A stretch of 41,626 bases of DNA, from positions 1-41,626 of the forward strand of contig CANCVE010000028.1 in the NCBI GenBank assembly GCA_947381435.1, read 5' to 3'. Under the pieces are notes generated by a model, which was not told the DNA's origin, made no database searches, and saw only the letters and a program-made list of their open reading frames with translations. This document shows, piece after piece, positions 6,940-38,437 of this stretch. The position numbers and the translations under genes were made by a program. This DNA comes from Chitinophagaceae bacterium. GTDB lineage: Bacteria > Bacteroidota > Bacteroidia > Chitinophagales > Chitinophagaceae. Each line of letters opens with the position of its first letter. Position 1 is the stretch's first letter.

Positions 6940-7644
6940 ATGGCAACGGCTATTACAGTTACTTCACCACTTACAACGACACAGATTACAACAATTGAAA
7001 CAAACACGGCCTCTACAGATGTTATTTTAACATTGGCAAAAATAGTTCTTACTCCCGCTCAGGATAAAGCTAAACTAACAGTGGGCGTTATTAAATCGTC
7101 TGAAATTACGGATGTGAACACTTCATTTGTAAAGACAAATACTAAGGGCGTACCAAGCACTTTGGATGTTTCTATTTATCAGGCTGATATTTTGTATATG
7201 GCGGTGCTAAAAGGAATACAAGCTACCATGTTACAGCATTATAATGAGGTAACGACATTGGTGGAAGTGTCTCAGCACAATTTAATGATAAAGACTAATG
7301 CTATATTGGCAAATGTGCGTATTGTGGCAAAAACAGATAAAGGTGTTTCTGATGCAAAAGATGCTTTGGATCTTAAGTATTTTACACGTGCATCTGCAAG
7401 TGTAGGCTCTGTAAATACTATTGGGGAAGGGGTAGTAATGGTATTGTCGGGCATTAACCCTAATAAACCTTTTGCAAATACAGAGAAAACAATGTTGCAA
7501 ATACTAAATGTAGGTGGCAGTAGTGCTAATGCAATAAGAGTAAATGGATTTACTTCGGCTCATTTGCCGAAAGAATGGGTAAATATTGTTGTTACCAACC
7601 TTAGCACAACGGATGCGGGTGGCTTTGAGGTGTTTATGAAATAA
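6940..7644 (+). CDS. Protein of unknown function, 234 residues
   Basis: I do not recognise a family. The start is ATG at 6940 (MATAITVTSPLTTTQ), preceded by an A-rich leader without a strong ribosome-binding site, which is normal in Bacteroidota. There is no signal peptide and no membrane segment. Residues 1-35 are rich in threonine; 36-135 look alpha-helical (AKIVLTPAQDKAKL, YQADILYMAVLKGIQ); residues 150-234 look beta-rich with glycines and end GGFEVFMK. The mix of a helical front and a beta-rich tail suggests a two-domain soluble protein. It stands alone, followed by a heptamer repeat, a terminator (7682-7711) and a long 7/21-nt array. The gene at 32886 has a comparable setting, but I see no clear sequence similarity. 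Confidence 0.75.
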   Translation: MATAITVTSPLTTTQITTIETNTASTDVILTLAKIVLTPAQDKAKLTVGVIKSSEITDVNTSFVKTNTKGVPSTLDVSIYQADILYMAVLKGIQATMLQHYNEVTTLVEVSQHNLMIKTNAILANVRIVAKTDKGVSDAKDALDLKYFTRASASVGSVNTIGEGVVMVLSGINPNKPFANTEKTMLQILNVGGSSANAIRVNGFTSAHLPKEWVNIVVTNLSTTDAGGFEVFMK

Positions 7645-7677
7645 TTGACAAATGGTAATTGACAATTGATATTGTAA
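7643..7677 (+). repeat. Heptamer tandem repeat after the stop codon
   Basis: Five degenerate 7-nt units directly follow the stop codon at 7642-7644, in the register taattga, caaatgg, taattga, caattga, tattgta. It sits between the gene and its terminator, so it would be transcribed as 3' untranslated sequence. Confidence 0.6.
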
Positions 7678-7681
7678 AGAG

Positions 7682-7711
7682 GCTATCACAGGTGTTGTGG
7701 TAGCTTTTTTT
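7682..7711 (+). terminator. Rho-independent terminator of the gene at 6940
   Basis: A 9-bp stem, gctatcaca / tgtggtagc, with one G-T pair and the loop ggtgt, is followed by seven T residues. Its position 37 bp after the stop codon fits termination of the 6940 transcript. Confidence 0.75.
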
Positions 7712-7720
7712 GTGGGTTTA

Positions 7721-8060
7721 AGTTGACGGTGTAAAGCTTTTGTAGTTGAATTTATAGCTTGCAAAGCCTTAGACATGGCTTACTAAATGTTCAGCTTGGC
7801 TTGACGATTGCTCAGCTTGGCTGGAAAAGTGTTCAGCTTGGCATAATAAAATGCTCAATTTGGGTAAATTAGCCTCTAGCATAGCTGAACTAGCTTTAAA
7901 TAAGGCTGGGCTAACCCCTCTGCTTGGCTTTTGGAGCTTAGTTGAAGACTTTTCAAGCCTAGCTGAGGGCTTTCTGTGTAAAGTAGAAGACTTTTGAGAA
8001 GTAACGTAAGACTTTCCAAGCCTAGCTGAGGGCTTTATATGCTTAGTAGAGTACATAGGA
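7721..8060. repeat. Long degenerate tandem array, 7-nt register with 21- and 63-nt higher order
   Basis: Words of seven bases repeat in near-constant phase, for example agcttgg, cttgacg, attgctc, agcttgg, ctggaaa, agtgttc, agcttgg: a 21-nt unit made of three heptamers. Further right, the words agcctag, ctgaggg and ctttctg or ctttata recur 63 nt apart. The minus-strand frame across it (7769-8056) stays open only because the period is a multiple of three. No constant repeat with unique spacers is present, so it is not CRISPR. Confidence 0.7.
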
Positions 8061-8082
8061 TGTCAAGCTTTAGGAGAGTGTA

Positions 8083-8317
8083 TGCAGGGCAAACGCACTA
8101 AAATTAATTGGATAAAATATACCACATAGTCACATAGCCACATAGTGTTCAGTAAGGAAACGCTTCGCTTTAAGGCCACATAGACGGGGATATACAGGCT
8201 TACAACGCTATGTGACCTTAAAGCGAAGCGTTTTATCTGCCTGAAATAATAAAAGCTATGTGCCTACTGTGGCTATGTGGTATAAAAAAAATTAAATGCG
8301 TTTGCCCTGAGAGTGTA
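8083..8317. mobile_element. MITE-like element of about 225 bp with terminal inverted repeats and flanking 9-bp direct repeats
   Basis: Perfect 13-bp terminal inverted repeats, cagggcaaacgca (8085-8097) and its complement (8297-8309), bound the element. Inside, 26-bp arms at 8158-8183 and 8208-8233 pair with one mismatch, and flanking words such as cacatag repeat on both arms. The 9-mer gagagtgta occurs just outside the left end (8074-8082) and at the right end (8309-8317), as a target-site duplication would. There is no coding capacity, so movement would need a transposase supplied elsewhere. Confidence 0.7.
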
Positions 8318-8563
8318 GGTTAGTTTAATACTATTTTAAATATTAACTTGGTAATTTATCTAGAGACAACATTTAAAAAAATAACTAGCATAATAGAGTA
8401 CCCTTTTAGCAAAACTGACTAAAATCATTGTTTTTTATGCTTTTTCACTGCCTAAAATAATTTTTTTATACCCCGATTTTAAACTTGGGTATCATAAAGA
8501 TGATTTACTGAAACTCAATACTAGTAAGGACTTTAGCTTTAATATGTTAGTTTGGTATCATAA

Positions 8564-11494: not shown

Positions 11495-12166
11495 TTAATT
11501 TTCTTTTAATAATGTTACAAATAAAGCCAATGCTAGTTCGCGGCTGATGGTGAAAGGGATAGAGGCATTTGTTTCTATCTCTAGAGAATTATCAAATGAG
11601 AATTTTCTTATTACACTGATAGATGTTCCAATGGCTATGTTTTTATGGGTAAGTAGTTCTAATAGTTCTGATGATTGGCTCCCCACTGCACTAACCTTGG
11701 CGGAACTTCCGATGGGTAGATCTACAAGATTTATCTGTGGTTGCACTTCTATTTTCCCATTACTATCCGGTATAGGATCTCCATGAGGGTCGAACTTGGG
11801 ATGCCCTAAAAAGCTATCTAGTCTTTCTACCAATAAACCACTACTTATGTGTTCCAACTCTTCGGCAATGGTGTGTACTTCATCCCAACGGAAGTTTAGT
11901 TTCTCTACCAAAAAGAATTCCCATAAGCGATGCTTGCGAACAATGCCCAAGGCAATCTTTTGCCCTTCATCGCTCAGTGAGAAGCCTTTATATTTTTCGT
12001 AATTGAGTATTTGTTTAGCGTTCAGCTTTTTAAGCATGTCGGTAACAGAGGCTGCTTTGGTGTTTAGTTTGGCGGCAACTTCATTGGTGCCAACATTTGC
12101 ATCGGACTGTTGCAAATGGTAAATGGTCTTTATGTAGTTCTCTTCGGTAGTAGATAAGTTATCCAT
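11495..12166 (-). CDS. mntR: DtxR/MntR-family metal-dependent transcriptional repressor
   Basis: The protein senses Mn2+ or Fe2+ and represses uptake genes. It has 223 residues: an N-terminal winged helix (MDNLSTTEENYIKTIYHLQQ ... TKAASVTDMLKKLNAK), the dimer and metal-binding domain with LGIVRKHRLWEFFLVEKL and EELEHISSGLLVERLD, and a C-terminal FeoA/SH3-like domain from about residue 145 (INLVDLPIGSSAKVSAVG). Spacing of 3 nt to the Nramp gene points to autoregulation of a regulator-transporter operon. The symbol is inferred from that neighbour; iron specificity (IdeR-like) cannot be excluded. Confidence 0.88.
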   Translation of the reverse strand: MDNLSTTEENYIKTIYHLQQSDANVGTNEVAAKLNTKAASVTDMLKKLNAKQILNYEKYKGFSLSDEGQKIALGIVRKHRLWEFFLVEKLNFRWDEVHTIAEELEHISSGLLVERLDSFLGHPKFDPHGDPIPDSNGKIEVQPQINLVDLPIGSSAKVSAVGSQSSELLELLTHKNIAIGTSISVIRKFSFDNSLEIETNASIPFTISRELALALFVTLLKEN

Positions 12167-12241: not shown

Positions 12242-12276
12242 TAATATCTCATATCTAATATTTCATAACTATAACT
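12242..12276. repeat. Heptamer tandem repeat downstream of the DUF1398 gene
   Basis: Units taatatc, tcatatc, taatatt, tcataac and tataact run in strict 7-nt phase and stop next to the stop codon of the minus-strand gene (12280). A different heptamer array lies at the other end of the same gene (12693-12734). Confidence 0.6.
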
Positions 12277-12279
12277 TCC

Positions 12280-12672
12280 CTACGGTGCAGGAATTATCTC
12301 AGCCAATAGTTCATTGCCTGCTTTATCAAAATAGGTGCAGGTCATCTTTTCCATATTTACTTCCCACTTTTCTATGCCAGATTTGGCGCAGTCGCTACAA
12401 AAGGTGGGGTAATTAGTTTTGCCTTGTTGATGTGCTTTAAGGTCAGCTTCAAACTGAACTTTATCACTTGTATCAACTACATCTAGACTTTCATATTTAC
12501 TACCCGAAGACACTTTGTAATCATTCTCTCCATAGTAATCAACATTCCCATCTGCTACAAAAGCCTTATAACGTAATACGCCTAGTTCTTTAATTTCTTG
12601 TATGTAACTAGGGAAATCGGCGCCGCTCTTCACCTTTGAATGTGCAGCCTTAATCTGTTCATTTGTAAACAT
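12280..12672 (-). CDS. DUF1398 family protein
   Basis: The protein of 130 residues starts MFTNEQIKAAHSKVKSGADF and has the family pattern GVLRYKAFVADGNVDYYGEND followed by TDKVQFEADLKAHQQGKTNY. It carries a CxxC pair (FCSDCAKSGIEKW) that might bind metal or be redox-active, which I state only as a possibility. It is soluble and its function is unknown; some relatives are annotated as phage envelope proteins without good evidence. I choose ATG at 12672. The nine extra residues obtained from GTG at 12699 are encoded partly by the adjacent heptamer repeat and do not look like family sequence. Confidence 0.75.
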   Translation of the reverse strand: MFTNEQIKAAHSKVKSGADFPSYIQEIKELGVLRYKAFVADGNVDYYGENDYKVSSGSKYESLDVVDTSDKVQFEADLKAHQQGKTNYPTFCSDCAKSGIEKWEVNMEKMTCTYFDKAGNELLAEIIPAP

Positions 12673-12692
12673 AAAGGTGTTTTTTATATGTC

Positions 12693-12734
12693 TAACCACT
12701 AATAACTAAGCACTAACAACTAAGCCTTACCCCT
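12693..12734. repeat. Heptamer tandem repeat between the DUF1398 and ABC-F genes
   Basis: Units taaccac, taataac, taagcac, taacaac, taagcct and tacccct follow each other in 7-nt phase. The last units overlap the stop codon region of the ABC-F gene (12727). The array thus fills the whole gap between two genes on the same strand. Confidence 0.6.
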
Positions 12735-14676
12735 CCATCTCCACTATCTGCTCAAACAATTCTTCGTAATGAGCTTCTGCCAATTTAATCTTAGCATTTA
12801 TTTCCTTATAGTGCCTTTCTGTTTCTGCAAACTTCACAGCATCCTTGTAGCTATCAGGTGCAGCTAATGCTAGTTCAATGGTAACTTTCTCTGCTTTTAG
12901 TTTCTCCAGTTCATCTTCCGCCTTCTTAAACCTGTTTTGCAGTTTCTTCAACTCCGTATTATCTACTCTTGGCTTGGTAGGAGCCTCTTGTTGTTTATTC
13001 TTTTGTGGTTCTGCTGCTTTTGCGGCAGGTTTTTCTTCAATGGCGGCTTTACGGCTTTGTTCCTTTGCATGTTTAGCCATACGCTCCTTCCACTCAACAT
13101 ATTCAGTATAAGTACCCTTAAACTCTTTTATTTCATGATCTACAATTTCCCAAATCTTATTGGCAGTCTTTGAAACAAAGAACCTATCGTGACTTACTAA
13201 TATCAAACTTCCCTCGTATTTATCCAAGGCTTCTGCCAAGAGTTCCACGCTGTGCATGTCCAAGTGGTTGGTGGGTTCATCTAGCATCAAAAAGTTACTC
13301 TTACTCACAATAACCTTTGCCAATGCCACCCTAGCTTTTTCCCCTCCACTCAATACTTTTATCTTCTTATCCGTATCGTCTCCACCAAAAAGAAAACAGC
13401 CCAACAAACCCCTCAATTCAGGATCCGTCTTGCCACTTCTACTCTCTTGCATCTCCTCCAAAATGGTGTTATCCATCGTTAATGCTTCTAGTTGGTGCTG
13501 AGCATAAAAGCTACTGTCTACATTATGTCCCCACACTCTTTCGCCTTCAAAGTTTTCTTCTGTTCCGGCAATTATCCGTAGTAATGTACTCTTTCCCTTA
13601 CCATTTGCCCCAATCAATGCAATCTTGTCGCCACGGTTTATCTCCGCAAAACCCTTATCTACAATAACATTATTGCCATATTGCTTATGAATATCTTTCA
13701 GCGTTACCAATACCCTTCCTGGTTGATTATTCAACTGAAAGTTTATCCTTATGTTCGGCCTTTCCATCTCCACATTCTCAATCCGTTCTATCTTGTCCAG
13801 CCTCTTCATAATGCTTTGCGCCATTGCAGCCTTACTCGCCTTCGCTTTAAAACGCTCCACAAACTTTTCTTGTTGCTTGATGTAGTCTTGCTGATTCTCA
13901 AAAGCCCTTTGTTGCATTTCTATGCGCAATGCCTTTTCTGTTTCATAGTATTCGTAGTTGCCAGAATATATATGAAGCTCCTGCTGATAAATCTCTACAA
14001 TCTTATTTACCATACGGTTCAAGAAATATTTATCGTGGCTCACTATCACCACACTTCCTTGATAGTGGAGGAGGTATTTTTCCAACCACTCAATAGACGG
14101 TAAATCCAAGTGATTGGTAGGTTCATCCAGTAGCAATACATCGGGGGCTTGCAATATCATCTTGGTAAGCAACACCCGCATACGCCATCCACCACTAAAT
14201 TCCTTGTAGGGTTTGCCCATTTGCTCGGTGGTAAATCCAAGCCCGTGCAACACTTCCTCCGTTTTATATTGAATGTTATAGCCATCCAATACATCCATTT
14301 CGTGCAGTAGGTCGGTATATTTTATAAGCAGTTCTTCGTTCTCATTCGTTTCCAGTTCTATGCCCAGTTCTTCTATTTCTTTCTCCAATTCGCGCACTCT
14401 TTCAAAGGCACCCATGGCCACTTCCAATATACTTTCGTTGGTATCAAAGCTCAACAGATCTTGGTGTAAGTAACCAATTGTAGTACCTCTTCCCTTCTCA
14501 ACAGACCCCTTAGACGGCAAATACTGACCCACCAAAACCTTTAGCAGCGTAGATTTTCCCGTACCATTATATCCTATCAATCCAATGCGTTCGCCCGGGT
14601 TTATGTGCCATGTAGCATCTTCCACAATCACCCTTGCACCAAATTCGAACGTTAAGTTTTGAAAGCCAATCAGCAT
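12727..14676 (-). CDS. ABC-F family ATPase (ribosome-associated, Uup-like)
   Basis: ABC-F proteins bind the ribosomal E site and act on stalled or paused translation, sometimes giving antibiotic protection; they are not transporters. Two ABC domains are complete. The first has Walker A GYNGTGKST (35-43), signature FSGGWRMR and Walker B LLLDEPTNHLD. The second has GANGKGKST, LSGGEKARVAL and LMLDEPTNHLD. A linker with basic helices (YIKQQEKFVERFKAKASKAA) lies between them, and a charged C-terminal coiled coil occupies about residues 555-649 (LKKLQNRFKKAEDELEKLKA), as in Uup/YdiF types. No membrane segment is present. A TAnnTTTG promoter precedes it. Which subfamily it belongs to is not settled from sequence reading. 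Confidence 0.92.
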   Translation of the reverse strand: MLIGFQNLTFEFGARVIVEDATWHINPGERIGLIGYNGTGKSTLLKVLVGQYLPSKGSVEKGRGTTIGYLHQDLLSFDTNESILEVAMGAFERVRELEKEIEELGIELETNENEELLIKYTDLLHEMDVLDGYNIQYKTEEVLHGLGFTTEQMGKPYKEFSGGWRMRVLLTKMILQAPDVLLLDEPTNHLDLPSIEWLEKYLLHYQGSVVIVSHDKYFLNRMVNKIVEIYQQELHIYSGNYEYYETEKALRIEMQQRAFENQQDYIKQQEKFVERFKAKASKAAMAQSIMKRLDKIERIENVEMERPNIRINFQLNNQPGRVLVTLKDIHKQYGNNVIVDKGFAEINRGDKIALIGANGKGKSTLLRIIAGTEENFEGERVWGHNVDSSFYAQHQLEALTMDNTILEEMQESRSGKTDPELRGLLGCFLFGGDDTDKKIKVLSGGEKARVALAKVIVSKSNFLMLDEPTNHLDMHSVELLAEALDKYEGSLILVSHDRFFVSKTANKIWEIVDHEIKEFKGTYTEYVEWKERMAKHAKEQSRKAAIEEKPAAKAAEPQKNKQQEAPTKPRVDNTELKKLQNRFKKAEDELEKLKAEKVTIELALAAPDSYKDAVKFAETERHYKEINAKIKLAEAHYEELFEQIVEMEG

Positions 14677-15707: not shown

Positions 15708-15732
15708 GGGAGGCGTATTTGGTATGCCTCCC
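15708..15732 (+). terminator. Hairpin, possibly a terminator or remnant
   Basis: A 7-bp stem, gggaggc (15708-15714) / gcctccc (15726-15732), has an 11-nt loop and is followed by tcttt. No gene ends shortly before it, so if it once terminated a transcript the gene is gone. It stands immediately before the 42-nt array. Confidence 0.4.
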
Positions 15733-15738
15733 TCTTTG

Positions 15739-15952
15739 AAACTAATTAGTTATGCCGCGTTTCTCATTAGTTATGCGATGAAACTAATTAGTTCCGCCGC
15801 ATTACTCATTAGTTATACGATGAAACTAATTAGTTATGCCGTGTTTCTCATTAGTTATACGATGAAACTAATTAGTTATGCCGTGTTTCTTCTTAGTTAT
15901 GCGATGAAACTAATTAGTTCCACCGCATTTCTTCTTTGTTCTAAGGTTAAAC
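15739..15952. repeat. 42-nt tandem array made of two related 21-nt halves
   Basis: About five copies of a 42-nt unit run from 15739. The half units begin aactaattagttatgccg and ttctcattagttatgcga, sharing attagtta at the same place, so the basic period is 21, itself three 7-mers (aactaat, tagttat, gccgcgt). Because 42 is a multiple of three, an artificial frame (15724-15975) with 14-residue repeats stays open. Copies differ at a few fixed positions, so divergence is moderate. Confidence 0.8.
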
Positions 15953-16000
15953 ATATTGGTCGAACAGTATATTGAATCAATAAATTAAAAAAATATAGAC

Positions 16001-16201
16001 ATGAATTGAGTAGTAACAGATTTAAGTAAAGAGGCAGATGATGCCATTGCGCCAAAAGTGAATGCCATAATAGTAGGCTGTACTGGCAATGCAAACTTTA
16101 CGGTAACCACCCAATTAAGTGATTTGGTTAGGGCCAAAACAAATTATGCTAACAAGTTGGGCTTGGTGGCCACAGGAAACCTATTAGTTGTGAGATATTA
16201 G
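16001..16201 (+). pseudogene. Gene remnant interrupted by a stop at codon 3
   Basis: After ATG AAT the third codon is TGA (16007-16009). The frame then stays open for 63 codons to TAG at 16199-16201. The translation VVTDLSKEADDAIAPKVNAI, then IVGCTGNANFTVTTQLSDLV and RAKTNYANKLGLVATGN, looks like genuine protein with a helical and Thr-rich composition. There is no alternative start with a leader. It is probably a truncated fragment of a larger Bacteroidota hypothetical protein; the end runs into a heptamer repeat. The family idea rests on memory only. Confidence 0.5.
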
Positions 16202-16232
16202 ATATGAGTTATTAGGGTTTGAGTAAATATTA
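16184..16232 (+). repeat. Heptamer array, left half of a mirror pair
   Basis: Seven units in 7-nt phase: ttagttg, tgagata, ttagata, tgagtta, ttagggt, ttgagta, aatatta. It overlaps the end of the gene remnant and stops at the terminator hairpin 16235-16273. Confidence 0.65.
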
Positions 16233-16234
16233 AA

Positions 16235-16273
16235 AGAGAGGCTGCCCTAATTGGAGCAGCCTCTCTTTTTTTC
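16235..16273. terminator. Strong bidirectional-looking terminator
   Basis: An 11-bp perfect stem, agagaggctgc (16235-16245) / gcagcctctct (16256-16266), with a 10-nt loop, is followed by a T-run on the plus strand and preceded by four A residues. It ends the remnant's transcript; on the minus strand its short T-run could help end the gene at 16309. Confidence 0.8.
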
Positions 16274-16311
16274 TAATATCTCATATTTAATATCTCATAT
16301 CTAAAAACTCA
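16274..16311 (-). repeat. Heptamer array, right half of a mirror pair
   Basis: Units taatatc, tcatatt, taatatc, tcatatc and taaaaac are the reverse complement of the words in 16184-16232 (ttagata, tgagata). The array reaches the stop codon of the minus-strand gene at 16309. Confidence 0.65.
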
Positions 16312-29492: not shown

Positions 29493-31346
29493 TTATTTGC
29501 CATTTTTATTCTTCATACTTTCAACCTTCTTTTGTGTTTCCATCACCTGCGCATAACGTTCTTGCCATTTACTTTGTTTTTTAGGCTGCGTACGTGTTTC
29601 TTTCATCTTAGCCAATATCTTAGCATGATCAATAATGTAAGTCTGAATCACGAATTGTAGTAATAATGTAATAGTATTAGATACAGTATAGTACCAAGTA
29701 AGTGCAGATGGCAATCTATTAAAGAAGAACAACATCATGAATGGAAAAATGTACGGCATGTACTTCATTGCCGGATTATCTTGCGTTGGTTGATTTCCGA
29801 TATTGTATAATGAGATCGCAAAACTTGTTAATACAGCAGTTATGGTGAATAAACTGATGTGATCTCCAAAACCAAATGGAATTGAGAAAGGTAATTGCGC
29901 AATAACATCATAAGACGACAAATCATGGCTCCATAAAAACGACTCCCCTCGAAGTGAAATGTTCGAATTGAAAAAACTATACAACGCAAAGAAGATAGGT
30001 ATCTGCAATAATGCCGGAATACAGCCACCCAAAGGATTTACGCCCGCCTCTCTAAACACTTTCATCTGATCCATAGCAAAAGCTTGTTGGTCAGCACCAT
30101 GTTTCTTCTTCAGTTCATCAAGTTCTGGTCTCAAAACTTTCATTTTGGCACCGCTTAGGTAACTACCATACATTAATGGGGCAGTAAACAAACGGATAAA
30201 CAAGGTAAGTAACAAGATTGCCCACCCAAAGTTAGAAATAAGCTTTGCAAAGAAGCCAAATACAGGCATAATCACATACATATTTACCGGACGTACAAAT
30301 GAGTAAACATCTCTACCAAGATTGATGATACCATCCATGCCGTTATTCAATTTTTCTAGGGTATGGTAGTCATTGGGGCCATAATACAACTGCATCGGTA
30401 TAGAAGCTTGTGAATTTACTGGCACATGCATTTGCAAATTAGCTTCAATTTTAGCTAAAGTGTTGGTAGTATCCTTTTCGGTACTGCGTTCCCATTTTAC
30501 ACCACCACTTGCAAAGTTATTTTTAGCAATAAGGGTGGTATTAAAGAACTGTTGTACAAAACTCATCCATTGTGCTGGTTTTTCTAGCGTATGATCGTTA
30601 TGCGAGGAAATGTAATCGAACTTGTTATCCTCACTAAAACAGATATTACTCATCTGTCTTTCATAAAGGTTCGATTTTTCATTCTGCGTTGTTGTCCAAT
30701 TCCACAAAATATTCACGTTACCATTACTCAATAACTTATCTGCGCCATTCATGTTAATGTTCCAGTCTATCAAATAGCTATTTGGCTTAATAATGTATTG
30801 GTGCGTAAGGCTTTGTCCATTCTTTGCAGCAATGGTAAAGCTTACTGTTTGGCTTCCGTCAGCATTTTTTATTATCGATGGCTGACCAAAGTATAAGTTA
30901 GTAACGGCATTAGCGTTATTATTGCCAGTATTTATGTTGTAGCTAATTTTATCGTTAGCATTTGCGCCCAGTACAATTGGTTTGCCATTAACGCTAGAGT
31001 TGTATTTCTTTAATTCCACTCCTTTCACGCTTCCACCCTTATTACTAAAGGTAATTTTAATTACTTCATTCTCTACCGTAGTAAATTGCTCAGTACCCAA
31101 AGCCGCTGTGGTAAAGTCTCCTGCTGCAGTTAGCTTATCTGCGGTATCTCTCTTTAAAAATTCTTTGTTTATTGCACTAGTATCTCTAAGTTTTAGTTGT
31201 TTTTGAGTAATTAGCTCAATAGAATCTTTGTCGTGTTTTTCTTTTGCCTGAATTGCGGCATTTTGTTGATTGCTGAAATAGAAATAGGCGAAAAATAGGA
31301 TTGCCAATAATACCATTCCAACGATTGTGTTCTTGTCCGTCTGCAT
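29493..31346 (-). CDS. yidC: Membrane protein insertase YidC
   Basis: YidC inserts and folds inner-membrane proteins alone or with Sec. The 617 residues have an N-terminal membrane anchor (TIVGMVLLAILFFAYFYF). A large periplasmic domain (about 50-360) follows, then the conserved insertase core: FFAKLISNFGWAILLLTLFI, GGCIPALLQIPIFFALYSFF and the last membrane segments to about 580. The C-terminal tail is basic (QPKKQSKWQERYAQVMETQK), useful for ribosome contact. The length is normal for the Gram-negative form. A TAnnTTTG promoter stands 20 bp upstream. Confidence 0.97.
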   Translation of the reverse strand: MQTDKNTIVGMVLLAILFFAYFYFSNQQNAAIQAKEKHDKDSIELITQKQLKLRDTSAINKEFLKRDTADKLTAAGDFTTAALGTEQFTTVENEVIKITFSNKGGSVKGVELKKYNSSVNGKPIVLGANANDKISYNINTGNNNANAVTNLYFGQPSIIKNADGSQTVSFTIAAKNGQSLTHQYIIKPNSYLIDWNINMNGADKLLSNGNVNILWNWTTTQNEKSNLYERQMSNICFSEDNKFDYISSHNDHTLEKPAQWMSFVQQFFNTTLIAKNNFASGGVKWERSTEKDTTNTLAKIEANLQMHVPVNSQASIPMQLYYGPNDYHTLEKLNNGMDGIINLGRDVYSFVRPVNMYVIMPVFGFFAKLISNFGWAILLLTLFIRLFTAPLMYGSYLSGAKMKVLRPELDELKKKHGADQQAFAMDQMKVFREAGVNPLGGCIPALLQIPIFFALYSFFNSNISLRGESFLWSHDLSSYDVIAQLPFSIPFGFGDHISLFTITAVLTSFAISLYNIGNQPTQDNPAMKYMPYIFPFMMLFFFNRLPSALTWYYTVSNTITLLLQFVIQTYIIDHAKILAKMKETRTQPKKQSKWQERYAQVMETQKKVESMKNKNGK

Positions 31347-31380: not shown

Positions 31381-31485
31381 AGTGAACAGTGTACAGTAAA
31401 CAGTGAGTAGTAAACAGTAAACAGTTAACAGTTATCAGTGAACAGTAAGCAGTAAACAGTTATCAGAAACTAGTTATTAGTTAAT
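31381..31485 (+). repeat. Fifteen-unit heptamer array, left half of a mirror pair
   Basis: Units in strict 7-nt phase: agtgaac, agtgtac, agtaaac, agtgagt, agtaaac, agtaaac, agttaac, agttatc, agtgaac, agtaagc, agtaaac, agttatc, agaaact, agttatt, agttaat. The consensus is agtaaac. It is the cleanest heptamer array in the window and lies between the promoters of yidC and mnmD. Confidence 0.85.
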
Positions 31486-31546
31486 ATTTCAGCTATGGTA
31501 CACAAATTATCACAATTAAATTTCAATTAAAAACCAATCCCACATT

Positions 31547-31554
31547 TACTTTTG
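31547..31554 (+). promoter_or_regulatory. TAnnTTTG promoter element of mnmD
   Basis: TACTTTTG is followed by cctttt; predicted transcription starts near 31561. The leader of roughly 115 nt would then consist mainly of the heptamer array 31583-31680. Confidence 0.55.
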
Positions 31555-31582
31555 CCTTTTAATAAACTTCTGTTAACTTTAA

Positions 31583-31680
31583 ACTCTTTACTGTAAGCTA
31601 GTAACTAGTTACTGTTTACTACAAACTGTTTACTGTTAACTGCTCACTGTTTACTGCAAACTGTTCACAGAAAACTCATG
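31583..31680 (-). repeat. Fourteen-unit heptamer array ending in the mnmD start codon, right half of a mirror pair
   Basis: Units actcttt, actgtaa, gctagta, actagtt, actgttt, actacaa, actgttt, actgtta, actgctc, actgttt, actgcaa, actgttc, acagaaa, actcatg. The consensus actgttt is the reverse complement, in rotated register, of agtaaac in the array 31381-31485. The final unit actcATG contains the start codon of mnmD in phase. Confidence 0.85.
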
Positions 31681-32343
31681 ACAAAGCAAATTCTTATCAC
31701 AAATGATGGTAGCTATACGGTGGCTATTCCCGAAATGAACGTTACATATCACAATATTCATGGAGCATTGCAAGAAAGTGTACATATATATATACAGACC
31801 GGGTTTCGGTTTGCGCTTCCTTTCATCAATTTCGAAACTATTTCGGTTTTCGAAATGGGTTTTGGCACAGGACTAAATGCTATACTTACACTACAAGAGG
31901 CTATTAGGCTACAGCGCAAGGTTTATTATTACACTACTGAGGCTTTTCCGCTCAGTTTGCAAGAGGCGAAGTTATTACAACAAGATAAATTACTAAATAC
32001 AGGTCATTTAGCCATGCGATTGCACGAGGCGGCATGGGAACAAGATATTTTGATTAATGAATATTTTATTCTGCACAAAACACGGCAGCCATTACTTGAA
32101 CTTTCCTTAAAAACACCCTTCGATATTGTCTATTTTGATGCATTTGCCCCTACCGTGCAGCCAGAATTGTGGACGGAAACCGTTTTTGCCCATATTTATC
32201 AGCACCTAAACAAAAATGGTGTATTGGCAACCTATTCTAGTAAAGTTATTGTTCGCAAAGCCATGCAGGCAGTAGGTTTTGCGGTAGAAAAGTTGGCAGG
32301 CCCAAAAGGAAAAGCAGAGATAGTGCGGGCAATGAAGAAATAG
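31678..32343 (+). CDS. mnmD: tRNA (5-methylaminomethyl-2-thiouridylate34) methyltransferase, MnmD-like
   Basis: The enzyme methylates nm5(s2)U at the wobble position to mnm5(s2)U using SAM. The 221 residues correspond to the methyltransferase half of enterobacterial MnmC; the FAD-dependent oxidase half is missing, as in standalone MnmD. The SAM motif is VFEMGFGTGLNAILTLQEA (about 60-78) and the catalytic region is FDIVYFDAFAPTVQPELW (about 151-168). The C-terminus has KLAGPKGKAEIVRA, a family hallmark. The start codon is embedded in a heptamer repeat, and the leader has no ribosome-binding site. Confidence 0.92.
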   Translation: MTKQILITNDGSYTVAIPEMNVTYHNIHGALQESVHIYIQTGFRFALPFINFETISVFEMGFGTGLNAILTLQEAIRLQRKVYYYTTEAFPLSLQEAKLLQQDKLLNTGHLAMRLHEAAWEQDILINEYFILHKTRQPLLELSLKTPFDIVYFDAFAPTVQPELWTETVFAHIYQHLNKNGVLATYSSKVIVRKAMQAVGFAVEKLAGPKGKAEIVRAMKK

Positions 32344-32353: not shown

Positions 32354-32423
32354 GTCGAGAGTTAAAAGTAGAAAGTCGAGAGAGTGATGTAGAAAGTTGA
32401 GGGTATGAGTTATTAGATTTATA
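32354..32423 (+). repeat. Heptamer array downstream of mnmD
   Basis: Ten units in 7-nt phase: gtcgaga, gttaaaa, gtagaaa, gtcgaga, gagtgat, gtagaaa, gttgagg, gtatgag, ttattag, atttata. With the array at 31583-31680, mnmD is flanked by heptamer arrays on both sides. Confidence 0.65.
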
Positions 32424-33830: not shown

Positions 33831-33868
33831 TTGTAAAAAAGAAGAAAAAGGCATCACGAAAGGTGCTT

Positions 33869-33976
33869 TTTTCATCACGAACTGAGGTTATTTCATCACG
33901 TTTTTAGGTTTTTACATCACGTTTTTAGGTTATTACATCACAGATTGGGGTTATTACATCACGAATTAAGGGTTTT
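33869..33976. repeat. 21-nt tandem array of five units
   Basis: Units begin at about 33873 with catcacg and repeat every 21 nt: catcacg, aactgag, gttattt; catcacg, tttttag, gttttta; catcacg, tttttag, gttatta; catcaca, gattggg, gttatta; catcacg, aattaag. The third heptamer and the first are the most constant. It follows the gene at 32886 by about 40 bp, with a weak hairpin (aaaaggcatc / ggtgctttttt) between. Confidence 0.85.
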
Positions 33977-34012
33977 GGTACATAAAAACCCTTAATTCGT
34001 GATGTAATAACC
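33949..34012. repeat. Perfect 28-bp hairpin closing the 21-nt array
   Basis: Arms 33949-33976 and 33985-34012 pair perfectly around the loop ggtacata. The left arm is the last array unit (ggttattacatcacg...) and the right arm is its exact inverse, so the array turns back on itself. This could serve as a terminator-like hairpin or as a recombination product. Confidence 0.85.
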
Positions 34013-34191
34013 TTCTTTCATGATGAAAAATGGCCGTTTTTGGAGCGATTTAAACCTGTTTTCGCCATAAAAACAAGATTTCGTGATAGAAATGGGAGAG
34101 GATGGGTAGGAATATATTTTTATCTAGCAGCTCAAAAAAAATAATTTCAGGTCATTCACAAAATTTGTACACTATAAAAAATAGTTTACAA

Positions 34192-34204: not shown

Positions 34205-35800
34205 ATGATACAGCATGATGACCTTATTCCTTCACAAAATGCGTTGCCCAGTAGCTTTGCTGATAAGGTTGGGCAGATTTATTCAAAATCGGTTTCATCT
34301 ATTCATAAAAAAAAGAATGGTCAGTTTCTTACGCCCGTTGAAATTGCGCGTTTCATGTCTACATTGGTATTTTCAAATGAAGAAAAACTAAAACTTCTCG
34401 ATCCAGGTTGTGGGGTTGCCATTCTTTCTTGTTCTCTTATTGAAACAATTGTGCATACCAACAAAAATATCAATTCAATAGACTTGGTTTTATACGAACC
34501 TGATCAAAATATTGTACCCTACCTAGCTAAAGTGTTGGATTATCTTAAGAAATGGATGTCTGAAAAGGATATTAAGTTCAAACTAACGCTTATTGAGGAA
34601 GATTTTGTATTGGATAATAGCATTTGCTTTGAAAAATCTGCGCCACTTTTCTTTAAGTTGGAAGATAAGGTGTTCGATATTGTCATATCTAATCCTCCTT
34701 ACTTTAAAATTCCAAAAGAAGACAAAAGAGCTGTGGTTGCGAAGTCGATTGTATGGGGGCAACCCAATATCTATTCAATTTTTATGATGGTAGCGTCTAA
34801 ATTATTGAAAGAAAATGGACAATTGATATTTATTACCCCTCGAAGTTTCGCTTCGGGCAATTATTTTAGGGCATTCAGAGAAGCTTTTTTTCAAGAGATA
34901 GAGATTCAGCACATCCATCTGTTTGGTTCGCGGACAGAAGCATTTGATAAGGATAGTATTTTACAGGAAACATTGATTCTTAAAGGAAAAAAGAAAGCCT
35001 TGGATATGCGCTTGGCAGAAATTGTGGTAACGCACTCTAGCGGCATCTATGATATTGGGCAATACAGTGAAAAAAGATATAGGACAAACGAATTAATTAA
35101 TTATAACTCGACAGAAAAAATAATACACCTGCCTGCAAATGAAGTGGATGACAACATAATTAAGTTGTTTAAAACATGGACGGGCAATTTGAGGGAGTAT
35201 AATATCAAGATTTCTACAGGACCTGTTGTTTCGTTTAGGGCTACGAGGTATTTATTCACCGAATATCAAAATGGAACCATCTTTTTAGTGCCTCTTTTCC
35301 AACTTGTCAATACTTCCAAGATGAACTTTGAATGGCCTGTATCAAAAAGAAATAAACCTCAATATATTCAGCTTTGTGATGATACCAGATCTATCCTATT
35401 GACCAATAAAAATTATATCTTCCTCAGAAGATTTAGTTCTAAAGATGATAAAAGCAGGCTGATTGCAGCACCTTATTTTGCTGAACCCAGTAAATGGGAA
35501 TATATTGGTGTAGAGAATCATCTTAACTACATATATCGCCTAAATGGGGAGCTTAAAAACAATGAGATATTAGGTTTGTGTGCTTTATTAAACAGTAATT
35601 TATTTGATATTTATTTTAGAACCTTTAATGGTAACATAAACGTAAGTGCCACTGAACTTAGGGAAATGCCGCTGCCACCTTTAGCGGATATTCAGCAAAT
35701 AGGGAATCAGATTGTACTGAACGAGGATTTTTCGCAGGAGAAAATAGATGAACTCATTAACAGCTACTTTAGTGTAGAACATATTTTTGCAAATGAATAA
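34205..35800 (+). CDS. BsuBI/PstI-type DNA adenine-N6 methyltransferase
   Basis: This is the protecting methylase of a type II system. Of 531 residues, motif I is LLDPGCGVAILS (D66) and the catalytic motif is SNPPYFKIP (N163-Y166), motif I before IV, as in gamma-class enzymes. The N-terminal KKKNGQFLTPVEIARFMSTL is the characteristic FxTP region. A C-terminal target-recognition half follows (about 300-531), with NHLNYIYRLNGE and LNSNLFDIYFRTFNGNINVS. Family membership is inferred mainly from the partner nuclease. The stop overlaps the nuclease start by 14 bp, so translation is probably coupled. Target CTGCAG is inference by family. Confidence 0.9.
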   Translation: MIQHDDLIPSQNALPSSFADKVGQIYSKSVSSIHKKKNGQFLTPVEIARFMSTLVFSNEEKLKLLDPGCGVAILSCSLIETIVHTNKNINSIDLVLYEPDQNIVPYLAKVLDYLKKWMSEKDIKFKLTLIEEDFVLDNSICFEKSAPLFFKLEDKVFDIVISNPPYFKIPKEDKRAVVAKSIVWGQPNIYSIFMMVASKLLKENGQLIFITPRSFASGNYFRAFREAFFQEIEIQHIHLFGSRTEAFDKDSILQETLILKGKKKALDMRLAEIVVTHSSGIYDIGQYSEKRYRTNELINYNSTEKIIHLPANEVDDNIIKLFKTWTGNLREYNIKISTGPVVSFRATRYLFTEYQNGTIFLVPLFQLVNTSKMNFEWPVSKRNKPQYIQLCDDTRSILLTNKNYIFLRRFSSKDDKSRLIAAPYFAEPSKWEYIGVENHLNYIYRLNGELKNNEILGLCALLNSNLFDIYFRTFNGNINVSATELREMPLPPLADIQQIGNQIVLNEDFSQEKIDELINSYFSVEHIFANE

Positions 35801-36728
35801 AATTGATGAGGCAAAAGAAATCCTAAAAGGGCTAGGTCTGCCAATTCCGCAGCAAAACGAGATTTCAGCATACACATTATTGGCACTTTGTGGTATTGAA
35901 CCAACTGATAAATGGAAAGATGCAACCAATAAAAGCGCAAAAGTTTCTAAAGGGATAATGGCATTTTGCAAAGAAGTTTATAACAAGGAATATGCACCAA
36001 ACACAAGGGAGACTTTTAGAAGGCAAGTGCTGCATCAGTTTGTACAAGCGAGGATAGTGGACTATAATCCTGAGAATCCATTATTACCGGTGAATAGTCC
36101 GAAGGCGCATTATGCACTAACCAAGGAAGCATTGACTGCAATTCGAACATTTGGAACAAAAAAATGGAAAGAAGCAAGCGATTTATTTAAATCGGAAGTG
36201 GGCGACCTATCAAAACGCTATCTAAAAGAAAGGGAACATAACCTTATTCCAGTGCTATTGAGTAATGGAGAGATAATAAAGCTATCTGCGGGAAAACATA
36301 ATGTTGTTCAGGCGGCAATTATTCAGGATTTTGCAGCACGGTTTGCAAATGGGAGCGAAGTTCTATATTTGGGGGATACTGCAAACAAAGATTTGTATGT
36401 TGATAAGGATATTTTGAAAGAAATAGGCATACCAATTACAGAACACAGCAAATTACCCGATGTTGTTTTATATGATAGAAAAAAAAACTGGCTTTATTTG
36501 ATTGAGGCTGTTACATCGCATGGTCCTGTTTCGCCAAAAAGGGTTGTTGAACTCGAGGAATTACTAAAAGATTGCAAGGCAGGAAAAGTGTATGTAACGG
36601 CATTTCCTGATTTTGCTGAATTTAAAAAACATTCAACCAACATTGCTTGGGATACTGAAGTTTGGTTGGTTGATTTCCCTGAACATATGATTCATTTTAA
36701 CGGAGATAGGTTTATGGGGCCACGATAG
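35787..36728 (+). CDS. BsuBI/PstI-type type II restriction endonuclease
   Basis: The nuclease cuts the site left unmethylated by its partner; characterised BsuBI and PstI recognise CTGCAG. The N-terminal part (about 1-150) is a helical DNA-binding domain (YNKEYAPNTRETFRRQVLHQ). The C-terminal BsuBI/PstI catalytic domain includes VLYLGDTANKDLYVDKDIL, LPDVVLYDRKKNWLYL (D225), IEAVTSHGPVSPKR (E240) and YVTAFPDFAEF. It ends WDTEVWLVDFPEHMIHFNGD. The PD-(D/E)XK-like core has EAV in place of ExK, as in the family. ATG at 35787 or 35793 may be used; both overlap the methylase gene. It looks intact. Confidence 0.93.
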   Translation: MQMNKIDEAKEILKGLGLPIPQQNEISAYTLLALCGIEPTDKWKDATNKSAKVSKGIMAFCKEVYNKEYAPNTRETFRRQVLHQFVQARIVDYNPENPLLPVNSPKAHYALTKEALTAIRTFGTKKWKEASDLFKSEVGDLSKRYLKEREHNLIPVLLSNGEIIKLSAGKHNVVQAAIIQDFAARFANGSEVLYLGDTANKDLYVDKDILKEIGIPITEHSKLPDVVLYDRKKNWLYLIEAVTSHGPVSPKRVVELEELLKDCKAGKVYVTAFPDFAEFKKHSTNIAWDTEVWLVDFPEHMIHFNGDRFMGPR

Positions 36729-36875
36729 TAGCCCGAATTTGTGAAGATTGATGTTATCTAGAATGATAATTTCTTAGATTACAACAAAAATGTATTGTAA
36801 TCATAATGAGAAATACACATCGCTCCTTTCATTACCCATAACTATTCCTTTATCTTAGCAAAAAATTAGTGATTA

Positions 36876-38036
36876 ATGGCGAGTATTTTAATAATAGACG
36901 ACGAACGCGCAATACGGAATGTACTGAAGGAAATATTGACCAATGAAGGCTACAAAGTAGACGAAGCCGTGGATGGGGAGGAGGGATTGAAGAAATTTAC
37001 TTCGGGAAATTATGACCTTATTCTCTGCGATATCAAGATGCCAAAGGTGGATGGTATCGAATTTTTGCAACAAGCCAATGCTATTAATCCTGATGTGCCT
37101 ATTATTATTATTAGTGGTCACGGAAATATAGAAACTGCCGTAGATGCGGTGAAAAAAGGCGCTTACGATTACATTTCTAAGCCGCCAGACCTTAACCGTA
37201 TGCTGATAACCATCCGCAATGCGATGGACAAAACCAATTTGGTGAAGGAAACCAAAGTGTTGAAGCGTAGGGCATCCAAAGTACAGGAGATTATTGGCGA
37301 AAGTGACCCGATAAAGAAGATTAAAGACACGATAGAAAAGGTAGCAGTTACGGATGCACGTGTTTTGGTTACGGGCGAGAACGGAAGCGGCAAGGAACTA
37401 GTTGCCCGATGGTTACACGAGAAAAGTAACCGCCGAGATAACCAAATAGTGGAGGTAAACTGTGCTGCCATACCCAGCGAACTGATAGAGAGTGAATTGT
37501 TTGGGCACGAAAAAGGGTCTTTTACATCGGCCATCAAGCAAAGGATAGGAAAGTTTGAGCAAGCAAACGGAGGTACGTTGTTTTTGGACGAAATAGGCGA
37601 CATGAGCCTGTCGGCACAGGCAAAAGTGTTGCGTGCCTTGCAAGAAGGAAAGATTACTAGGGTAGGGGGCGACAAAGAAATTGCTGTAGATGTTCGTGTG
37701 GTGGCAGCTACTAATAAGGACTTGCTGCAAGAAGTGGAGGCCAAGAACTTTAGGCTCGATTTGTACCATCGTTTGGGGGTAATACTAATTCATGTGCCTT
37801 CACTTAATGAACGTAGGGGGGATATTCCGCTTTTGGTTGATAAATTTTTGCAGGATATAGCCCTAGAATATGGTCAACAACCAAAAACTATTGATGATGC
37901 AGCAATGGAGGCACTTAAAAAACACAACTGGACTGGTAATATCCGAGAACTTAGGAATGTAGTGGAAAGATTGATTATACTTTCTGGTAAAACCATCACC
38001 ACAAACGATATAGACAGTTATGTTTTGTTGAAATAG
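36876..38036 (+). CDS. NtrC-family sigma-54-interacting response regulator without DNA-binding domain
   Basis: The product has 386 residues. The receiver domain has D52 in LILCDIKMP. The AAA+ domain has Walker A GENGSGKE (167-174), GSFTSA (214-219) in place of the canonical GAFTGA loop, Walker B LFLDEIGD and the arginine-bearing LDLYHRLGVILIHVPSLNER. The protein ends VVERLIILSGKTITTNDIDS, about 70 residues before a normal Fis-type helix-turn-helix would end, so it lacks its own DNA-binding domain. From memory this form is common in Bacteroidota. Its partner kinase is not adjacent. A near-consensus element tatcttag lies about 25 bp upstream. Confidence 0.93.
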   Translation: MASILIIDDERAIRNVLKEILTNEGYKVDEAVDGEEGLKKFTSGNYDLILCDIKMPKVDGIEFLQQANAINPDVPIIIISGHGNIETAVDAVKKGAYDYISKPPDLNRMLITIRNAMDKTNLVKETKVLKRRASKVQEIIGESDPIKKIKDTIEKVAVTDARVLVTGENGSGKELVARWLHEKSNRRDNQIVEVNCAAIPSELIESELFGHEKGSFTSAIKQRIGKFEQANGGTLFLDEIGDMSLSAQAKVLRALQEGKITRVGGDKEIAVDVRVVAATNKDLLQEVEAKNFRLDLYHRLGVILIHVPSLNERRGDIPLLVDKFLQDIALEYGQQPKTIDDAAMEALKKHNWTGNIRELRNVVERLIILSGKTITTNDIDSYVLLK

Positions 38037-38047
38037 ATTCTTAAGCG

Positions 38048-38331
38048 GGAATCGGAAGGATCGTGAATCGCAAGTTTATTTGCTTGAAATTTATGGTTGG
38101 GTAGCTTTATGGTGGATTTCTGGTCAAACGAGGAATCGGAAGGGTCGTGAATCGCAAGTTTAGTTTCTTGAAATTTATGGATGGGTAGCTTTATGCTGGA
38201 TTTCTGGTTAAACGAGGAATCGGAAAGAACGTGAATCGCAAGTTTAATTGCTTGAAATTTATGGTTGGGTAGCTTTATGCTGGCTTTCTGGTCAAACGAG
38301 GAATCGGAAGGAACGTGAATCGTAAGTTTGT
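38048..38331. repeat. 84-bp tandem repeat, about 3.4 copies
   Basis: The word ggaatcgg starts at 38048, 38132, 38216 and 38300, exactly 84 bp apart. Each unit begins ggaatcggaagga-cgtgaat and continues cgcaagttta, ttgcttgaaatttatgg, gggtagctttatg and ttctggtcaaacga. 84 is 4 x 21 and 12 x 7. Copies differ at about one position in ten. It fills the gap between convergent genes; a further partial copy of its first 31 bp lies at 41256-41287. Confidence 0.9.
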
Positions 38332-38353
38332 GGACTAATATTTATGGGGTTTA

Positions 38354-38437
38354 CTAACTAACGACTTACGATTCTCAACTCCCGATTAACGATACTCAAC
38401 TCCCGACATTTTACTCCCGTTTTCCGATTAATTAAAT
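38354..38437. repeat. Heptamer array reaching the stop codon of the BamA-like gene
   Basis: Units: ctaacta, acgactt, acgattc, tcaactc, ccgatta, acgatac, tcaactc, ccgacat, tttactc, ccgtttt, ccgatta, attaaat. A 21-nt higher unit (acgattc, tcaactc, ccgatta) is repeated with one change. It overlaps the stop codon of the minus-strand gene (38428-38430) in phase. Confidence 0.75.

Follow-up and report, generated by a model that had tools for sequence, protein, structure and literature searches.

Tandem repeats with two preferred unit lengths, 7 and about 21 bp, in the intergenic DNA of a Chitinophagaceae genome

The intergenic DNA of the Chitinophagaceae genome G000 contains two populations of tandem repeats, one with a unit of 7 bp and one with a unit of about 21 bp, rather than following one general 7-nt register. 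The starting point was the window, the whole stretch of 41,626 nucleotides of contig CANCVE010000028.1 that was analysed. Higher-order units and inverted copies are found in or near many arrays, some unit families are dispersed within the genome, and species differ widely at shared gene pairs. We put the probability at roughly 0.5 that these are fast-evolving, satellite-like non-coding repeats that arise by slippage and by template switching at hairpins, preferentially in steps of 7 and 21 nt.

Two unit lengths in intergenic DNA

Autocorrelation was calculated for 20 regions of 20 kb, about 8% of the genome. Intergenic DNA was defined as that outside open reading frames of at least 100 amino acids picked greedily by length, so that small genes are included in it, and the set comprised 63,261 bp in 204 segments, compared with 20 shuffles. 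The main peaks are at lags 21 (z 26.7), 42 (z 20.7), and 7 (z 14.6), followed by 84 (z 11.2), 63 (10.0), 126 (8.1), and 105 (7.7), and then by 14 (z 6.9), 41 (6.8), and 28 (3.3). The short lags 3 (z 12.1) and 4 (z 8.9) are also raised. The sequence-only reading had expected peaks at 7, 14, 21, and 84 and an excess throughout the intergenic DNA of the genome. All four lags are raised, and the excess extends past the window in the sampled part, while coding DNA of the same sample displays the codon pattern alone (3 shuffles). Similarly, the arrays called by TRF number 59 in 63 kb of intergenic DNA, compared with 14 in 336 kb of coding DNA.

The same reading had assumed a single 7-nt register, and this does not hold for G000. 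Lags 35, 49, 56, 70, 77, 112, and 119 are not raised in the intergenic set, and local-lag segments with score 13 are few at 35 (n=7), 49 (n=5), and 56 (n=3). Peaks at 7 and 21 without these other multiples of 7 thus indicate two populations. When the fundamental period was taken as the shortest lag whose score was no less than 35% of the highest, 212 arrays of the genus set fell into classes of 7/14 (n=68), 20–22 (n=56), 40–44 (n=32), 63–64 (n=6), and 84–85 bp (n=2), and the remaining 48 were spread over further periods, none of which had more than four arrays. The four longer classes make up 96 of the 212 arrays, so a 7-nt unit does not cover all of them, and 41-bp units (11 arrays) and 22-bp units (5 arrays) are not multiples of 7.

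The sister genome G012 gives another picture, as 174 kb of it has peaks at 35, 42, 70, 21, 63, and 84. The periods of 35 and 70 are real and count against the two-class reading, and peaks at these lags besides 21 and 42 favour a 7-nt register. A 9/18-bp register, suggested by 20 kb of G012, was dropped after the 174 kb showed other peaks. Enough intergenic sequence for analysis was present at 73 of 80 loci in one survey and at 34 of 40 in another.

The arrays of the window are listed in Table 1. The sites named in the sequence-only reading were scored against 300 dinucleotide shuffles per region; 13 of the 14 hold arrays with a period that is a multiple of 7 (p≤0.007), while no significant array was found at 14716 (score 5.4, shuffle mean 5.5, p=0.46). 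The site it placed at 7721 is the 21-bp array at 7776–7842. Two further arrays fall outside the rule of 7, a 30-bp unit at 6244–6315 (score 41.4) and an 8-bp unit at 8123–8146. A search for known RNA families gave no Rfam match at gathering score in the window.

Table 1. Tandem arrays and inverted copies in the window (lag and array scores; p from dinucleotide shuffles).
Position	Strand	Feature	Support
7643–7671		Weak heptad array at stop of ORF 6940–7644	Lag 14 score 11.6, p=0.003; TRF period 7
7776–7850		21-bp array, 3.6 units	TRF score 73; lag 21 score 21.8 over 7776–7842, p=0.003
7926–8051		21/63-bp array, not named in the sequence-only reading	Lag 63 score 29.8 over 7945–8050; internal lag-21 z 4.8
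12242–12278		Heptad array (14-bp pairs), upstream of iron-dependent-repressor gene 11495–12166 (-)	Score 12.0, p=0.007; gene from Pfam
12692–12725	+	Heptad array, ACT core, between ORFs 12280–12699 and 12727–14676	Score 15.6, p=0.003; TRF 54
15737–15960		42-bp (2 x 21) array	Lag 42 score 122.6; internal lag 21 z 3.9; unit family on C72, C47, C12, C17
16182–16215		Left arm of inverted heptad pair; TTAG/TGAG heptads, without strict ACT/AGT core	Score 13.4
16272–16304		Right arm of inverted heptad pair 16182–16304, just past stop of minus-strand ORF 16309–17490	Score 16.4
31381–31489	-	AGT(N4) heptad arm (AGTNAAC), upstream of yidC-type gene 29493–31346 (-)	Lag 7 score 42.6
31570–31676	+	ACT(N4) heptad arm (ACTGTTN), directly 5' of methyltransferase gene 31678–32343	Score 31.8 over 31570–31668
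32354–32408	-	21-bp array of AGT heptads, past stop of 31678–32343	Score 14.2, p=0.007; heptads by eye
33852–33976		21-bp CATCACG array, 6 units	Score 53.4; another array in G000 on C196
33949–34012		Perfect 28-bp inverted repeat, 8-nt loop: array end of 33852 and its inverted copy	
38048–38329		84-bp x 3.4 array between convergent genes	Score 162.8; internal lag 21 z 0.2
38354–38430	+	ACT-type heptad array adjoining 84-bp array	Lag 21 score 19.0 over 38356–38406; heptads to about 38430 by eye

Heptad arrays and their inverted copies

Heptad arrays are widespread across the phylum. The proposal that arrays share a period and not a motif fails for most of them, as an ACT/AGT core is found in 45 of the 68 heptad arrays of the genus set (20.4 expected); it is broadly right for the 21-mers, though some of their families recur. 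The arrangement of the core is also regular. Opposed neighbouring heptad arrays read AGT...ACT in all 14 pairs of the genus sample, 10 of 10 in G000. In 148 genomes of the phylum, a pair search counting overlapping matches with centres of 4–34 nt gave 209 matches for AGT...ACT and 16 for the reversed order. G191, whose heptamer holds both trinucleotides, supplies 15 of these 16, and without it the counts are 190 and 1; G000 alone contributes 106 of the 209. The ACT pattern is not universal in the phylum, and the reversed control outnumbers it (overlapping matches) in, for example, G176 (478 vs. 262), G178 (150 vs. 19), G171 (107 vs. 15), and G132 (72 vs. 0).

For placement and polarity, arrays were defined by four or more ACT or AGT spaced 7 nt apart, single gaps being permitted, and the midpoint is intergenic in 69 of 82 such arrays of the genus sample. 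After stops AGT prevails over ACT (35 vs. 17 in the genus sample, 7 vs. 6 in other Chitinophagaceae) and before starts ACT over AGT (24 vs. 7 and 3 vs. 1, respectively), one array possibly counting toward several genes.

Many arrays lie in or beside inverted repeats. When each arm of a pair and any repeat in the 150-bp flanks were counted, an inverted repeat with a score of at least 16 was found for 40 of 68 heptad arrays and 30 of 96 21-type arrays; the corresponding nulls, made from permuted units and shuffled flanks, are 2.9% and 0.4%, and 5 of 41 array-free regions score as high. In the window, 16184–16215 pairs with 16273–16304 (score 22) and 31396–31462 with 31602–31668 (score 29.5). Calculated folds are strong for 16180–16306 (-60.8 kcal/mol, z -10.6) and 33930–34030 (-51.1 kcal/mol, z -11.1), weaker for 15737–15860 (z -4.7), and only z -2.0 for 31545–31676, where 5 of 200 shuffles were equally good.

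It is possible, if doubtful, that selection maintains the heptad pairs as hairpins of RNA or DNA at the ends of genes, i.e. 3' ends, terminator extensions, or leaders, and that a protein or RNA polymerase recognises the heptad step and the AGT/ACT core. The polarity in the phylum and the position of heptad arrays next to stops and starts favour this, and so does the distribution of 7-type arrays, which occur in 13 of 116 convergent and 4 of 123 divergent gaps (p=0.022). For strict inverted pairs, however, the difference is not significant (4 of 116 vs. 2 of 123, p=0.44), and the opposed pairs are few, 14 pairs taking in at most 28 of the 82 arrays. The pair at 16182–16304 surrounds a GC-rich, terminator-like hairpin with a T run, but the handful of further centres read in G000 do not resemble terminators; a general role of heptad pairs as brackets around terminators was therefore rejected.

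Comparison of species, with one genome for each, also bears on hairpin selection. At the 31381/31570 locus an inverted heptad pair is present in G000, G003, G002, and G006, 4 of 11 species, and the arms are complementary although the heptamers differ; selection of a hairpin would give this too. At a response-regulator locus, on the other hand, the best inverted repeats of G000 and G010 are no better than those of shuffles. TAACTGA arrays ahead of start codons have been proposed to have a translational role, according to the accessible part of the account (PMC4679880). Hairpin selection leaves the 21-bp arrays unexplained.

Slippage by itself, in turn, leaves the AGT...ACT polarity, the ACT core, and the gene-end placement unexplained. 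We consider it unlikely that two activities lie behind the repeats, a lineage-specific enzyme or repair route that would write copies of about 21 nt of any sequence, and a phylum-wide AGT/ACT reader or writer that would maintain a single polarity of the heptad hairpins found at gene ends.

Arrays of about 21 bp, their spread and turnover

The arrays of about 21 bp are mostly limited to the genus and often have higher-order units of 41–43 or 63 bp. In G000, 44 arrays of the 21-type were found in 441,626 sampled bases, which extrapolates to about 490 per genome. Units of 42 bp (17 arrays) and 63 bp (4 arrays) retain an internal lag of 21 (pooled z 8.1 and 9.2), and in this they are like higher-order satellite repeats. 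The one 84-bp unit that was examined, at 38048 in the window, is without such a lag; by eye it has a heptad-derived look. The longest arrays among those listed are about 310 bp, whereas arrays of satellite DNA run to kilobases. Simple derivation of the 21-mers from three heptads was rejected, the internal lag-7 signal being weak (z 2.7, 49 arrays), and so were coding repeats of seven amino acids, as 27 arrays have 46 open frames compared with 44.7 ± 4.7 when columns were permuted. Codon-phased variation was not seen in these 27 arrays either (phase statistic 2.85 vs. 2.93).

Since 21 bp is two helical turns, the arrays might form lattices bound by a regulatory or nucleoid protein whose sites must lie that far apart, but this is rather improbable. 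Conserved columns are contiguous inside the unit (lag-1 z 3.8, 36 arrays), trinucleotides with CG show a 1.7- to 2.5-fold enrichment, partly because the arrays have a higher G+C content (0.375 vs. 0.313), and dyad symmetry is found at p<0.05 in 11 of 39 arrays; the first impression that the 21-mers are universally palindromic was given up on this last count. No site common to all 21-type arrays was found, however, and the units differ between loci. The helical facing suggested in the sequence-only reading is not supported by the equally in-phase spacings, lags 10–11 not being raised in the intergenic DNA of G000 and units of 31–32 and 52–53 bp being nearly missing, with one 31-bp array among the 212. 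Indels (2.8%, mismatches 10.1%) are present in 38 of 68 21-type arrays, and this tolerance argues against strict selection on spacing. Among long regions, 21-type arrays occur in 24 of 75 divergent, 40 of 150 tandem, and 13 of 33 convergent ones, with no significant preference for promoter-bearing gaps. An apparent preference for convergent gaps in G000, where arrays cover 21.5% of the convergent intergenic bp compared with 8.8–11.3% elsewhere, was not significant genus-wide.

Within G000, certain unit families are each present at a few loci. The 15737 unit, the sole family searched for across the genus, is found on five contigs of G000, and of the 12 other genomes only G003 has a match, a weak one; its absence from the other 11 also speaks against a binding lattice. 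The 33852 unit occurs on one further contig, and for the 38048 unit no second array was found in G000. In four pairs of copies, compared within 400 bp on each side, homology is confined to the arrays.

The sequence-only reading suggested comparing array lengths in related strains; between species, the changes are large. The convergent gene pair with the 84-bp array is separated by 395 bp in G000, but by 16 bp without any array in G003, the nearest relative sampled. In G002 the same gene pair has a hairpin resembling the G000 unit, while G001 and G006 have other heptad arms.

REP/REPIN elements are short intergenic palindromes that are dispersed in the genome and associated with RAYT transposases. 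The arrays described here are likewise short, intergenic, and dispersed, but have no conserved sequence, the tandem period being the constant feature. That they are a mobile element family, e.g. REP/REPIN-like palindromes moved by Y1 (RAYT-type) transposases, is very improbable: 12 of the 13 genomes of the genus have Y1_Tnp matches (G000 has 7), some arrays are palindromic, and families are dispersed inside G000, but a conserved palindrome is lacking, copy pairs have the array alone in common, and none of the four Y1_Tnp loci read among 42 matches listed has heptads. One of these loci (L270) has a 41-bp array about 0.8 kb from the ORF, one (L271) has none, and L272 and L273 have weak lags only (52; 15 and 20, respectively), and the four loci give no support to a RAYT link.

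Proposed origin and relation to known repeats

In the satellite-like reading that we favour, intergenic DNA would grow by tandem duplication, preferentially in steps of either 7 nt or about 21 nt. Inverted copying by template switching in a hairpin may produce the heptad arms that are opposed as AGT...ACT. The 21-bp arrays would be re-amplified as blocks of two or three units and occasionally copied to other loci. The step sizes would be set by the copying machinery and not by selection, for instance if slippage during replication involved a contact or loop of fixed length. Polymerase slippage with a 7-nt contact was proposed in the 2007 survey of Mrazek and colleagues (as cited in the accessible parts of PMC4679880 and PMC4692102). 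A putative generating enzyme would belong to this scheme; one common to the arrays is possible, and for the heptads so is a protein that binds with a 7-bp step.

Heptameric simple sequence repeats are familiar in prokaryotes from LSSR surveys, from the heptamers of cyanobacteria, and from the GGGAATC-type repeats of Xanthomonas and Nostoc, and an excess of heptamers in bacteria is already published. The arrays described here share with them a 7-nt tandem unit, an intergenic position, and a patchy distribution among lineages, but their heptads are degenerate, mostly have an ACT/AGT core, and have a fixed polarity where arrays are opposed. Eukaryotic satellite DNA has a constant unit length with differing sequence, higher-order units, and families at several loci. 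The first two properties recur here, and for the 15737 unit so does a family at several loci, in arrays that, unlike satellites, are bacterial and short and include many different units per genome. CRISPR arrays differ in that the units here are, by eye, alike over their whole length, without spacers.

Among the closest published repeats are the direct TAACTGA repeats, which are known from Beggiatoaceae, cyanobacteria, and five Bacteroidetes. Of 14 sets in Flexibacter litoralis, 12 point forward ahead of a start codon and one lies in reverse after a stop, as far as the accessible part of the account goes (PMC4679880). These repeats contain ACT, oriented before starts as in the genus sample, and their polarity in F. 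litoralis matches that of the present arrays. Among the heptad arrays listed, one from G000 has the consensus ACTGATA, a rotation of TAACTGA. There, however, one exact heptamer is repeated, while here many heptamers have ACT alone in common, paired arms occur, and there are also the arrays of about 21 bp. The sequence-only reading knew of no account of its period-conserved, sequence-free form from Bacteroidota, which goes too far for heptamer arrays and still fits the 21-bp class, not described in the accessible part of that account. The literature search met no account of a genus-wide 21-bp register or of the AGT...ACT polarity, which is weak evidence as subscription papers were mostly outside its scope.

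The repeat class is set by unit length and not by sequence, so the mechanism that sets the length can be separated from the sequence that is repeated. As arrays are many per genome, sister species differ widely, and the samples of some family members lack the 21-bp form, the origin of the unit length can be tested by comparison and by genetics. For the heptamer excess of earlier bacterial surveys, the AGT...ACT polarity offers a point of entry at the sequence level. If the writing enzyme and the AGT/ACT reader or writer were real, these repeats would be a bacterial satellite-DNA system having its own ruler.

Unit lengths of the intergenic arrays

The genome to which the window belongs as contig 28 (G000) comprises 4.88 Mb in 231 contigs. 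Its nearest named relatives by rpoA are three Chitinophagaceae metagenome assemblies with 90-91% protein identity, in a collection that may omit records very near the window's own. A sequence-only reading had proposed that intergenic DNA here follows one register of seven, shared as a period and free of any motif. A significant array at a multiple-of-7 lag was found at 13 of the 14 sites it named, the exception being 14716 (p=0.46; 300 shuffles per region), while two window arrays with units of 30 and 8 bp fall outside the rule. The excess does extend past the window: the intergenic DNA (63,261 bp) of twenty 20-kb pieces of G000 has self-match peaks at lags 21, 42, 63, 84, 105, and 126 and at 7, 14, and 28 (z from 26.7 down to 3.3), and lags 3, 4, and 41 are also raised. 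The coding DNA of this sample displays a triplet pattern. TRF reported 59 intergenic arrays versus 14 in coding sequence five times as long, and in sample plus window 277 local-lag segments scored at least 13, versus six after a single shuffling. These 441,626 bases (72,107 bp intergenic) contain 44 arrays of the 21-type, 25 heptad arrays and 16 of other periods, covering 7,223, 1,790, and 1,929 bp, respectively.

Arrays scoring at least 14 were collected from the window, samples of 13 genomes of the genus and the loci L027 and L028, giving 212. The fundamental period is 7 in 57 of them and 14 in 11; periods 20, 21, and 22 account for 2, 49, and 5 arrays, periods 40 to 44 for 1, 11, 17, 2, and 1, periods 63 and 64 for 4 and 2, and periods 84 and 85 for one each. 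The remaining 48 have other periods, with at most four arrays per period. Since units of 42 and 63 bp retain an internal lag of 21, the second basic unit is about 21 bp with higher-order multiples, and not every multiple of seven; the 84-bp unit of the window has no internal 21 lag (z 0.2). A single register in this genome is not supported: units of 41 and 22 bp are present in this set, and none of the lags 35, 49, 56, 70, and 77 is raised in the G000 intergenic sample. Units of 31-32 and 52-53 bp are almost absent from the 212 arrays, though likewise in helical phase. Counter to the two-class reading, the sister genome G012 peaks at 35 and 70 too. Its loci (L117, L126-L135) display these mixed with 21, 42, 63, and 84, as well as arrays at 9 and 47, and their density of array segments per base of intergenic DNA is the highest among the genus genomes sampled.

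Distribution of the two classes

Among the genus samples, the highest or nearly highest peak falls at lag 21 or 42 in G000-G002, G005-G007, and G009-G012. G003 peaks at 41 and 82, G008 has a weak 42 only (26 kb), and G004 has no 21/42 peak (33 kb). Of 80 named rpoA loci, 73 had enough intergenic sequence for analysis, and the 21 register dominates L027, L028 and one Parafilimonas terrae locus, L093. The latter, from another genus, carries a strong 21-bp array (L093:11906-12197). A weak peak at lag 21 is present in L082 (z 4.3), yet the arrays there are heptads only. The register was not seen in small samples (about 20 kb each) of eight other family genomes, nor above triplet background in the 34 analysed of 40 small phylum samples, nor in 150 kb of E. 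coli K-12. Heptads are more widely distributed: five ACT at 7-nt steps are found in 94 of 148 phylum genomes, G000 having the most matches (659 versus 36 for a reversed control pattern). The control outnumbers ACT in some other phylum genomes, and ACT is therefore not the core everywhere.

Other steps were also encountered. The GC-rich phylum genome G168 has its own repeat step, with a strong 8-nt intergenic register at L205 (lag 8, z 9.8; also 48 and 56), and L237 of G117 has an intergenic repeat of 86-87 bp (lag 87, z 8.0).

Core and direction of the heptads

The heptads of the genus carry both a motif and a direction. The consensus holds ACT or AGT in 45 of 68 heptad arrays versus 20.4 expected from shuffled heptamers, and ACT is enriched 2.7-fold, so the motif-free claim fails for most of them. 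In 40 of the 68, an inverted repeat lies within the array or the 150 bp on either side. Opposed neighbours at most 250 bp apart are ordered AGT then ACT in 14/14 cases in the genus and 3/3 in other Chitinophagaceae. When the 148 phylum genomes were searched for four AGT and four ACT steps around a centre of 4-34 nt, this order gave 209 matches in 25 genomes (106 from G000) and the reverse order 16 in two, 15 of them from G191. The heptamer of G191 is ACTAGTN and the order there is thus meaningless; without this genome the counts are 190 and 1. AGT:ACT is 35:17 after stops (7:6 outside the genus), and ACT:AGT is 24:7 before starts (3:1 outside). This agrees with the orientation of TAACTGA arrays, which are described in a passage of PMC4679880 as forward ahead of starts and reverse after a stop.

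Features of the window
Feature	Position	Strand	Remarks
Weak Y1_Tnp match	255-473	-	26.8 bits
Restriction-modification system, type III pair	1702-6212		Pfam
30-bp unit x 2.4	6244-6315		97% matches; not in the 7/21 classes
8-bp unit x 3	8123-8146		CACATAGT
83-aa open frame	15724-15975		within 42-bp array
Terminator-like GC-rich hairpin with T run	16232-16269		within inverted heptad pair 16182-16304
Restriction-modification system, Eco57I-like methylase and BsuBI/PstI-type endonuclease	34205-36728		Pfam; close to the 33852 array
Response-regulator gene	36876-38036

Array families, gene neighbours and proposed growth

The 21-type arrays are not coding, and a coding origin was rejected. The 83-aa frame repeats because 42 is a multiple of 3, and annotation may report it spuriously as a repeat protein. 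Palindromy (p<0.05) was found in 11 of 39 arrays tested; 30 of 96 have an inverted repeat inside them or in a flank, and 38 of 68 contain indels (gapped finder). The array at 33852 closes with a perfect inverted copy, 28 bp long, of its own terminal sequence. Some unit families recur, four array pairs being known within the G000 sample. In G000 the 15737 family is found on five contigs, the 33852 unit recurs on a single other contig, and the 38048 unit forms just the one array. Among the 12 other genomes, the 15737 family, the sole one searched across the genus, has a weak match in G003 only. Homology between copies was found in the arrays alone. G000 has seven Y1_Tnp matches.

The same gene pairs differ strongly between species. 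Between the response-regulator gene and its convergent neighbour, G000 has 395 bp holding the 84-bp array, G003 (94% protein identity) 16 bp, and G010 88 bp. The gap of G002 measures 91 bp and includes a perfect 15-bp hairpin similar to the G000 unit; that of G001 measures 172 bp and contains a long heptad array together with a complementary arm. In G006, where the neighbour is different, a heptad hairpin is followed by a 21-mer array. Inverted repeats at this locus exceed shuffles in G001, G002, and G006, and do not in G000 and G010. The methyltransferase gene at 31678 has a match in 11 genomes, G000 included. It is preceded by an inverted heptad pair with differing heptamers in G000, G002, G003, and G006. 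The inverted repeats ahead of it in G004, G007, and G011 exceed shuffles but are of another kind than heptad pairs; by eye, ACT heptads precede its start in G005, G010, and G011.

Passages of PMC4679880 and PMC4692102 cite an already published heptamer excess and slippage proposal. In literature of partial coverage, no account was found of a sequence-free class of about 21 bp that spans a genus, or of the AGT...ACT rule. Slippage alone fails to explain why the heptads keep one polarity, share a core trinucleotide and retain complementarity, and a functional hairpin is therefore the main rival for the heptads. In the proposed mechanism the DNA would grow by tandem copying in preferred steps, with inverted copying as a second route, and the data fit such tandem and inverted copying, with strong differences between species.
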